From Phycisphaerales bacterium (lineage in GTDB: Bacteria; Planctomycetota; Phycisphaerae; Phycisphaerales; UBA1924), in the NCBI GenBank assembly GCA_030149165.1, contig JASBRY010000009.1:868001-932000 (forward strand): a stretch of 64,000 bases of DNA, written 5' to 3'. This document shows, in pieces, positions 33,102-36,741 of the stretch (position 1 is its first letter; each line of letters opens with the position of its first letter). Under the pieces are notes generated by a model that was not told the DNA's origin, ran no database searches, and saw only the letters and a program-made list of their open reading frames with translations. The translations under genes were made by a program, and so were the position numbers.

Positions 33102-35820
33102 ACCCTCGCGATTGATCCTGCTCTCGGCAGCGGTCTGTATGTCGGTGGTGCTCATCAGCGCCGTCGCGTGCGTAATGGGATCGATCAACGCGTCGTTCAC
33201 GAAGCAAATCGACACACAGGTCGGACTCGCGGAAGCGAGGGTCGTCGCGATCAAGGGATCGACGATGCCTGCATCGGTCGCGGATACGGTGCGTGAGTGG
33301 GACGGCGTGCAATCGGTGCTTCCCAGACTGCAGCAGACGTACTCCGTGCTCTCGACTCTCCCGACGGCGATGCCAATCGATGAGGATAATCCGGAGACTG
33401 AGTACAGCGTTGTGGATCAGGGGTACCTCACAAGTGTTTTTATCAATGGGGTCGATCCGAGCGCGGAGTTTGAGGCGCGTCCTGTGGAGCTGCTTGAGGG
33501 GCGATATCCGGAGAAGGACTTTGAGATCGTCCTCGATGCTCGTGCGGCGCAGCGGATGAGCTGGGTGTATTCGACGGATGAAGAGGGGTATCGCGCGACG
33601 AAGTTGTTTGATGATCCGATCGGGTATCACGATGATCCGAAGCCTTTCGTTGGTCAGCGTGTGATCGATGCGGATGAAGCGGAGCGTGTGAATCGTGCCG
33701 TTGGTCCTCGTGTAGGAGATCAGATCGAGATTGCTCGATTGCTGCGATCCAATGTGACGCTGACGCTTGTGGGAATCTCCAAGGCACCCCCGATGGGTGG
33801 TCGTCCGATGGGGTACACGACGATCGCGACGCTCGATTCGATTGCTCGCAAGAAGAATCAGATCACGGATCTGGAGATCAAGCTCGCGGAGGGCATCGAT
33901 CCGATGGAGTTCGTCGCGCAGTACGAAAACGCATTCGAGGGACGCGCGATCGTGCAGACCACACAACGAGTCACGGCGGGAGTGCAGCAGAATCTCGCGG
34001 CGGCGCAGCTGGGGTTCATGTTGATCTCGGTCATCACGCTGATCTCTGCGGCGTTCATCATCACGACTGGACTGACAACTGGTATCGCTGAACAGCAGCG
34101 CATGCTCGGAGTGCTGCGTTGTATCGGTGCGCATCGGCATCAGCTCGGGATCGCTCAGCTGCTTGTTGGATTGACTGTTTCGGGTATCGGAGCGATTGCG
34201 GGGCTACCGCTCGGGATCGCGCTTGCGTGGGTATTGGTGAGCATCTTTGAGCAGCAGCTCCCGGCGGGGTTGGTCGTGCCGCCGTTGAACTTGTCGCTGA
34301 CCTTGGTAGGGGCGCTGCTTGCGGGATTGAGCGGTGCGCTTTGGCCCGCATGGAGAGCGGCGCGGCTGTCTCCGATCCAAGCGATGGCGCAGCAGGCGCA
34401 ACCCACCAAACCAGTTCAGATTGGATTGGTCACGGTTGTTGGATTGCTCGGGATTCTGTATATGGGGAGCGTGGTGCTGTCTCCACTGAGTGGTCAGTCG
34501 TTCTTCTGGGTCTACATCACGACAGGACTCCCGGCGATGTTCCTGGGATACTTCCTCGCATCGGTCGCGGTGGTGGTCGTGATCGCGAAGCTGATCGGTC
34601 CGATGATTTCCAGAGCGTTCGGGCTTCCTGAGTCATTGTTGGTTCGGACGGTGCGTGCGACGCCGTATCGGCATGGGTTCACGGCTGGGGCGCTGATGAC
34701 GGGACTCGCGCTGCTCATAGGGATCTGGACCAACGGCACGGCGGCGATGCGCGACTGGATTAATCAGATCCAGTTCCCCGATGCGTTCGCGTACGGGCTT
34801 CCGATGACGGAGGAATCGATCGAGATCCTGAACAATCTTGATGTCGTCGAGCGGACCTGCGCGATCAATATGCTCGCGGTGGAGACCGATGCGTTCGGGG
34901 TCAAGGCGCTGCAGTCGTACAAGACCAACTACTTTGGGTTTGAGCCTGACGCGTTCTTTGACATGGTGCATGTGGAGTTTGTCCAAGGGGATCGGGAGAC
35001 GGCACTCGCAAAACTCAAGGAGGGTGGCAGCGTCATCGTCGCGCGGGAGTTCCTCGTTGCGAAGGGAATGGGAGTAGGGGACACATTTGTTTGTAAGGAT
35101 TCATCTGGGAATGAGCACAGCTTTGACGTGGTTGGTGTGGTGACTACGCCGGGGCTTGAACTGGTCTCGCAGTACTTTGATCTCGGCGAGAGCATGGTCC
35201 AGCAGGCGATCAGTTCGGTCTTTGGATCACGAGCGGACATGATCGAGCACTTTGGGATTCGTGAACCGATGCTGATCCAGCTCGATCTGGATGATTCGGT
35301 GGAGCCGAGAGTGGCGATCGAGGAAATCGAGCGGGCGCTGATCGGGACTGGGGTGCTCAATGTCGGCTCGGGAGCGCGGATCCGGAATCAGATCGAGACG
35401 GTGTTCGCGTCGTCCTTTGCGGTGATCTCGATCGTTGCGGTGGGCGCGATGCTCGTTGCGTGCTTTGGGGTCGCGAATCTGATTGTGGCGGAAGTGAGCG
35501 CGAGAAGATACGAGCTGGGAGTTCTGCGAGCGGTCGGCGCGTCGCGTGGTCAGTTGGTCCGCTTGATCTGTGGACAAGCACTGATCATCGCGCTCGCGGC
35601 GTGCGTGCTCGGAACGCTCTTGGGATTGCAAGCGGCTTGGGGTGGTCAGCATATCAATCGAGCGTTGGTGGGGATCGATCTGACGCTCCAGCCTCCGATG
35701 ATCCCGATCGTGTTGTCGTGGGGGGTTGCGATCGTGTTGACCTTGCTCGCGGCGGCTCCGAGTGCTGTCCGGCTCAACAAAGCCTCGGTCCGCGACCTGA
35801 TGAGCGCGACCAAAGGGTGA
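33058..35820 (+). CDS. Large FtsX-like ABC permease
   Basis: 920 residues from ATG 33058, which has an AAGGGGGG purine stretch just upstream; a longer frame from 33010 lies inside the ATPase gene and is not preferred. Layout: N-terminal membrane helix, a ~270-residue periplasmic MacB-like domain, three helices of a first FtsX module (AQLGFMLISVITLISAAF...), two further helices, another helix with a second periplasmic domain of ~230 residues, and a final three-helix FtsX module (FAVISIVAVGAMLVACFGVANL; EVSARRYELGVLRAVGASRGQL). It is thus a duplicated permease that can form a transporter without a second permease gene. Works with the ATPase encoded upstream. Confidence 0.88.
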   Translation: MQALLRLARSICLGRPSRLILLSAAVCMSVVLISAVACVMGSINASFTKQIDTQVGLAEARVVAIKGSTMPASVADTVREWDGVQSVLPRLQQTYSVLSTLPTAMPIDEDNPETEYSVVDQGYLTSVFINGVDPSAEFEARPVELLEGRYPEKDFEIVLDARAAQRMSWVYSTDEEGYRATKLFDDPIGYHDDPKPFVGQRVIDADEAERVNRAVGPRVGDQIEIARLLRSNVTLTLVGISKAPPMGGRPMGYTTIATLDSIARKKNQITDLEIKLAEGIDPMEFVAQYENAFEGRAIVQTTQRVTAGVQQNLAAAQLGFMLISVITLISAAFIITTGLTTGIAEQQRMLGVLRCIGAHRHQLGIAQLLVGLTVSGIGAIAGLPLGIALAWVLVSIFEQQLPAGLVVPPLNLSLTLVGALLAGLSGALWPAWRAARLSPIQAMAQQAQPTKPVQIGLVTVVGLLGILYMGSVVLSPLSGQSFFWVYITTGLPAMFLGYFLASVAVVVVIAKLIGPMISRAFGLPESLLVRTVRATPYRHGFTAGALMTGLALLIGIWTNGTAAMRDWINQIQFPDAFAYGLPMTEESIEILNNLDVVERTCAINMLAVETDAFGVKALQSYKTNYFGFEPDAFFDMVHVEFVQGDRETALAKLKEGGSVIVAREFLVAKGMGVGDTFVCKDSSGNEHSFDVVGVVTTPGLELVSQYFDLGESMVQQAISSVFGSRADMIEHFGIREPMLIQLDLDDSVEPRVAIEEIERALIGTGVLNVGSGARIRNQIETVFASSFAVISIVAVGAMLVACFGVANLIVAEVSARRYELGVLRAVGASRGQLVRLICGQALIIALAACVLGTLLGLQAAWGGQHINRALVGIDLTLQPPMIPIVLSWGVAIVLTLLAAAPSAVRLNKASVRDLMSATKG

Positions 35821-35970
35821 AGAAGAGTTAAATCGGGCAGACATTCGTCCGATATAGAGGAAGTTCGCTTGCTTTCTTGCTCAGCGGACGGTTCAATAGA
35901 ACATCCCTCACTGGGAACCACCTGCGGAGAGTAGCCGGGGTGGAATGTATGGACTTACAGGAGATTTGAC

Positions 35971-36741
35971 ATCGCTCGCAGACGCTTCTTTCGGCAACAA
36001 GGTCCCGTCACACGGACTCGTATCAATCACATGATCCGCCTTTCCCCGATCCGCTTGATCGGAGAGGACGGCGAACAACTCGGGGTGGTCGAAACACCCG
36101 ACGCGATGCGCATGGCGCAGCAAGCGGGACTCGACCTTGTGGAGGTCGTGCCTGACTCACGCCCGCCCGTGTGCAAGATCATGGACTACGGCAAGTACAA
36201 GTACGAACTCTCCAAGCGCGAGAACAAGTCCAAGTCTTCAGGCGCGGAAATGAAGGAAATCCGTTTGGGTCGATCCGTCAAGATCGATCCGCACGATGTG
36301 CAGATCCGTGTGGATCAGGCGCGCCGGTTCCTGATCTCTGGACACAAGGTCTCGATCACTCAGCGATTCCGTGGTCGTGAGATGATGCACAAGGAGCTTG
36401 GTGAGGAACGCTTGTTCCAGATCTGTCAGGACCTGAGTGATGTCGCGAAGATCGAGATGGCTCCGCGTACTGCTGGCCGTTCGATCTCAGTGGTCCTTGG
36501 ACCTGACAAGGCAAAGATCGAGTCGTACAAAGCGAAGCTCGCGAAAGAAGGCAAGCAAGCCGAGGAAGACCTCGCGAAACTTGAGGAAGAAGTCGCGGCA
36601 CAGAACGCTGAGATCGATGCTCAAGAGTCGCATGAGGATCAGGCTGAGGACAGCAAGGCGAAGAAGAAGTCCAAGGGGCCGAAGGACGATCGTGCTTCCA
36701 ATCCTGTGGACGACGAGATCGCGGACCTGCTGGGCGGGTAA
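35971..36741 (+). CDS. infC: Translation initiation factor IF-3 with probable AUC start codon
   Basis: IF-3 binds the 30S subunit, prevents 50S joining and checks the start codon. The family start (RTRINHMIRLSPIRLIGEDGEQ, compare RIN..IR..VRLI...GEQLG) is partly encoded upstream of the first ATG at 36031, so that ATG would cut the conserved RIN segment. Upstream, the frame is open to a stop at 35932 and has no ATG, GTG or TTG. An ATC at 35971 lies 7 nt after AGGAG (35959-35963), giving 256 residues beginning with ARRRFFRQQG. IF-3 genes in other bacteria use AUU or AUC starts as an autoregulatory device. The C-terminal domain (FRGREMMHKELG) is followed by an extra ~60-residue Glu/Lys-rich tail. 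rpmI and rplT, usual partners, do not follow. Confidence 0.93.
   Translation: MARRRFFRQQGPVTRTRINHMIRLSPIRLIGEDGEQLGVVETPDAMRMAQQAGLDLVEVVPDSRPPVCKIMDYGKYKYELSKRENKSKSSGAEMKEIRLGRSVKIDPHDVQIRVDQARRFLISGHKVSITQRFRGREMMHKELGEERLFQICQDLSDVAKIEMAPRTAGRSISVVLGPDKAKIESYKAKLAKEGKQAEEDLAKLEEEVAAQNAEIDAQESHEDQAEDSKAKKKSKGPKDDRASNPVDDEIADLLGG

Follow-up and report, generated by a model that had tools for sequence, protein, structure and literature searches.

Where, then, does translation of infC begin, when the reading frame of initiation factor IF3 runs through its conserved N-terminal motif before any ATG is reached? This question is raised by a stretch of 64,000 nucleotides (hereafter the window, whose numbering is used below), carried by a planctomycete assembly of 2.84 Mb that is 94% complete. 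The nearest named relatives of its infC in the public genome collection are Phycisphaerales. An earlier note on this DNA had proposed that the gene starts at an AUC codon and that IF3 thereby represses its own synthesis, as in Escherichia coli.

The infC gene and its apparent start codon

The infC gene is single-copy in the genome and occupies 35971-36741 of the forward strand, with the stop codon TAA at 36739-36741, if it is read from the ATC at 35971. The resulting protein of 256 aa matches IF3_N (PF05198, E = 1.4e-30, from residue 18), IF3_C (PF00707) and TIGR00168 (184.5 bits, from residue 15), all well above the cut-offs. If the protein is begun at the first in-frame ATG (36031-36033), conserved positions are lost and the TIGR00168 score falls to 176.3 bits. 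The N-terminal motif RINHMIR, whose residues N, I and R are invariant across 14 diverse planctomycete IF3s, lies at 36019-36039 and begins upstream of that ATG, as the earlier note had said and as can be read directly from the coordinates. In the IF3 of the genus, R116, R129, R131, R133, R168, Y70 and Y75 of E. coli IF3 are retained, and the C-domain positions 99, 112 and 147, which are Arg in E. coli, are S, D and Q, respectively. Beyond IF3_C, the product extends by about 75 further residues, many of them charged (36510-36738); such C-terminal tails vary in sequence among the family relatives and are absent from several other planctomycetes.

The frame is closed upstream by a TAG at 35932-35934 and is open from there. 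It reads CCG GGG TGG AAT GTA TGG ACT TAC AGG AGA TTT GAC ATC(35971) GCT CGC AGA CGC after the stop and CGT ATC(36022) AAT CAC ATG(36031) across the motif. No ATG, GTG, TTG, CTG, ATT or ATA occurs in frame between the TAG and the ATG at 36031, and the only in-frame ATC codons before it are those at 35971 and 36022, the latter encoding the I of RIN. A Shine-Dalgarno (SD) sequence, AGGAG at 35959-35963, stands 7 nt before the ATC at 35971, and none is found in cacggactcgtatcaatcac, which directly precedes the ATG at 36031. Both the lack of the three usual start codons and the placement of the SD sequence agree with the earlier reading. As for the predicted mis-annotation, the mechanical list of open reading frames does begin infC at 36031, 20 codons short; for gene callers in general the loss of 20 residues is a prediction from the sequence, since those limited to ATG, GTG and TTG must start at or after 36031.

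An alignment of the upstream regions of relatives had been suggested in the earlier note, and it shows the non-canonical start to be conserved: an ATH codon with an SD sequence is present at codon -15 to -20 before RIN in 63 of 65 loci of the family and order, compared with 0.009 per locus expected from shuffled upstream sequence and with an SD-like stretch before 14.5% of internal in-frame ATH codons. Among 30 genomes of the genus, family and order (its own included), the homologous codon is ATC in 27, ATA in two and ATG in one, is preceded by an SD sequence in nearly all, and is followed in most by a sequence like I-A-R-R-R-F. Codon-type conservation starts at the ATC at 35971. Among 16 genus members, the third-position share of pairwise differences is 0.33 and 0.39 upstream of the ATC but rises to 0.59 over codons 2-17 and to 0.73 within the gene body, and the ATC itself is unchanged. 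In the genus alignment GGAG and ATC are both invariant; the invariance of the third base of the ATC was dropped as evidence, because the internal Ile codons are nearly all ATC too. In several relatives a stop lies 2 to 6 codons upstream of the ATC, which leaves no room for a much longer protein in them.

Based on homology, the placement of the SD sequence, order-wide conservation and codon-position statistics, the AUC at 35971-35973 is thus supported as the translation start of infC, as first proposed, with a probability of roughly 0.9 for actual initiation at this codon.

Start codons of infC in planctomycetes and other phyla

To survey the phylum, starts were called mechanically at 174 planctomycete loci as an in-frame candidate codon with an SD sequence at the usual spacing. 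The calls were ATC at 92 loci, ATT at 22, TTG at 13, ATA at 10, ATG at eight, GTG at three and CTG at two, with 24 uncalled, although the automatic caller sometimes picks an unrelated codon (e.g., L002, L022 and L166). Judged by these calls, planctomycete infC appears almost always to avoid AUG and to use AUC, AUU, AUA, UUG, GUG or CUG instead. Applied to named genomes of other phyla, the procedure, which relies on sequence and not on annotation, called ATA for Rhodobacterales, chiefly ATC for actinobacteria and either ATT or ATC for Firmicutes. E. coli infC, whose annotated start is an ATT behind GGAGG, served as a positive control. Together with the AUC start in Streptomyces (PMC5472188), these cases bear out the remark in the earlier note that infC uses non-AUG starts elsewhere. 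The AUC start is consequently one case of a non-AUG infC start, an arrangement that seems to be very common in bacteria.

Some loci depart from the usual pattern. In the planctomycete family f40 (L172, L180, L184, L201 and L207) a GTG start stands about 4 nt behind AGGAG, an unusually short distance, and L175 of the same family apparently lacks both GTG and any other usual start codon at its SD sequence. In two sister genomes of the family to which the window belongs, L024 and L108, the ATC has been lost and an ATG is found at codon -15/-16, with the SD sequence farther off. They are possibly natural revertants free of the control, and the ATG nearby indicates that a non-AUG start is not indispensable.

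Some of the uncalled loci form a group with an ACG. Behind a good SD sequence, ACG is the apparent start of infC in 18 planctomycete genomes of three orders (L036, L039, L042, L044, L301, L303-L309, L310-L312, L314, L316 and L317). In the class of L036 and L301 (which in the collection consists of a single order, that of G057), ACG with an SD sequence at the usual spacing is found in 12 of 13 genomes, the thirteenth, L302, apparently having TTG; L310-L312 (3/3) and L314, L316 and L317 belong to two further orders outside this class. In L305, L306 and L039 the 24 codons before the motif include no NTG or ATH, and the same holds for L303 between the motif and a stop located 18 codons before it. 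In L311 the stop lies inside the SD sequence, and only CCC ACG ACG ACG AAA AAG TTA GCC is left before the motif. L174, of the same genus as L314, has CTG at the matching place. ACG with an SD sequence was present in 17 of 17 loci scored, compared with 0.022 per locus expected after shuffling, a contrast that overstates the surprise somewhat because the test was made after the pattern had been seen. In one ACG lineage (G095), no Met tRNA was found in the roughly 10% of the genome covered. No report of an ACG-started infC was found in the open-access journal literature searched; PMC9845219 cites a paper, arXiv 2008.10758, on genes preferring non-AUG starts.

On a tree of 95 IF3 sequences, whose deep branches are poorly supported, the identity of the start codon changed at least 24 times; scoring ACG against all other codons gives at least five changes and scoring AUG in this way gives three, these being minimum numbers that cannot tell gain from loss. 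It is somewhat probable that selection in the Planctomycetota keeps the infC start mispaired at any base, that is, at the third (AUC, AUU and AUA), the first (UUG, GUG and CUG) or the second, where ACG would be a kind of infC start unreported in the papers searched. If this is true, an essential gene would be served by initiation in which the middle base is mismatched. Specialist attention is best directed to the ACG lineages.

Decoding, proposed feedback and alternative explanations

The 16S rRNA 3' end is GGATCACCTCCTTT, with an intact anti-SD, so that the AGGAG before the ATC is meaningful. The genome has 44 predicted tRNAs, of which 35 were read with ARAGORN; the nine unread, at 83-90 nt, have the size of tRNAs with a long arm. 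The anticodon CAT is found in three of the 35, and one of these three (L120) combines a GGG:CCC anticodon stem with the lack of a standard 1:72 pair, features that mark the initiator. It is the only tRNA with initiator features among those read, and its anticodon is CAU; consequently the AUC would be mispaired at the third base, and it is most likely read by the initiator tRNA in this way. For E. coli components it is established that IF3 discriminates against such pairs, Watson-Crick pairing being required at the first two bases and stronger pairs being preferred at the third (PMC10158994).

The AUC start of infC is best explained by an autoregulatory loop, by analogy with the AUU loop of E. 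coli. The AGGAG at 35959 would select the AUC at 35971, where the CAU initiator tRNA would pair with A and U, mispair at the third base and insert fMet. Owing to this mispair, IF3 would destabilise initiation complexes formed on the infC mRNA, so that plentiful IF3 would damp its own synthesis, and scarce free IF3 would allow more initiation on the AUC until its level is restored. The IF3 protein, the CAU initiator tRNA, the intact anti-SD and the near-general avoidance of AUG all fit such autoregulation, which we infer. Of the IF3 residues that serve in discrimination, R131, R133, R168 and Y75 are retained, but R99, R112 and R147 are replaced, and this replacement of E. coli C-domain arginines speaks against the loop. 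In addition, about three changes involving AUG against at least 24 changes of codon identity are as expected if 'not AUG' is the property that is kept.

Could the gene start elsewhere, or the AUC be read otherwise? The ATG at 36031 is the first standard start codon, and the matching Met is kept within the genus, as would be expected if the open frame before it were an untranslated leader. However, this ATG has no SD sequence, would cut off the conserved RINH, has no counterpart in many genomes of the order beyond this genus, and is preceded by the codon-type conservation that begins at 35971, so that it is very unlikely to be the start. Re-initiation after a short upstream peptide, MDLQEI*, is suggested by a frame of six codons (ATG at 35949, stop at 35967-35969) that overlaps the SD sequence and ends one base before the ATC. 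Yet this peptide is shared with no relative except the nearest, L009, and the missing conservation largely rules out such coupling, which we regard as hardly credible. A special initiator tRNA fully paired with the AUC is an exceedingly remote prospect, since initiator features occur only in the CAU tRNA (35 of 44 read) and the tRNA-Ile(GAT) has an elongator-type stem without them.

A different view would accept the AUC start but regard it as constitutively weak, lowering expression without any feedback by IF3. In its favor, some lineages have UUG or GUG starts, which according to PMC5472188 are canonical like ATG, i.e., not targets of repression by IF3. On the other hand, feedback is favored by the way in which near-cognate codons have replaced one another while AUG is rare, as well as by the loop established for E. 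coli (PMC5472188 and references therein), and we consider a merely weak start unlikely.

Upstream of infC, a -35-like element, TTGCTT (35869-35874, inside CTTGCTTT at 35868-35875), and a -10-like element, TTCAAT (35892-35897, inside TTCAATA at 35892-35898), lie on the forward strand with a spacer of 17 nt, and both are invariant in 17 of 17 genus loci. The pair is probably the infC promoter, and the position of the -10-like element would imply a leader of about 65 nt; a consensus promoter scan did not report the pair. An Rfam scan around infC returned no RNA family, and a structured leader RNA was rejected as a candidate, the stretch from the promoter-like element to the SD sequence being unconserved in the genus, which also argues against the upstream peptide.

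The gene upstream of infC encodes an FtsX-type permease and ends at 35820, while a gene for a HIT-domain protein and then a UvrA-like ORF follow downstream on the opposite strand. The infC-rpmI-rplT cluster of the E. coli type is absent. The infC gene is at C10:904013 and rplT, with rpmI before it, at C10:1361089, about 457 kb apart; rpmI and rplT adjoin each other at L091 1067-1875. Therefore, control of infC cannot spread to rpmI-rplT via a shared mRNA.

Comparison with known systems and implications

The AUC start of infC belongs to an already known kind. In E. coli, infC starts at AUU and is autoregulated by IF3 (PMC5472188); as in the window, it is an IF3 gene with a strong SD sequence, an AUH codon mispaired at the third base and RIN a few codons inside, but its start is AUU instead of AUC and it is followed by rpmI-rplT. 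Streptomyces infC, from another phylum and compared by its start codon alone, also starts at AUC, and it shares the same problem of annotation, being mis-annotated in most Streptomyces (PMC5472188). The GUC start of Streptomyces sigR is repressed by IF3, as tested with infC mutants (PMC5472188), and thus resembles the present proposal in using a start codon rejected by IF3 for regulation, although the target is other than IF3 itself. The start of Rhodobacterales infC likewise lies 17 codons before the motif, at a similar distance from its SD sequence and with the beginning I-A-R-R, but it is AUA (called from sequence, not annotation) instead of AUC.

The present analysis corrects the N-terminus of IF3, an essential protein, which in most of these genomes will be cut short by annotation that admits only ATG, GTG and TTG. 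If the feedback operates as proposed, a textbook autoregulatory loop would be extended to a phylum in which translation has seen little biochemical work. Moreover, planctomycete infC offers a natural series of first-, second- and third-base mismatches together with a few AUG revertants, and consequently what IF3 selects against on its own mRNA becomes testable.
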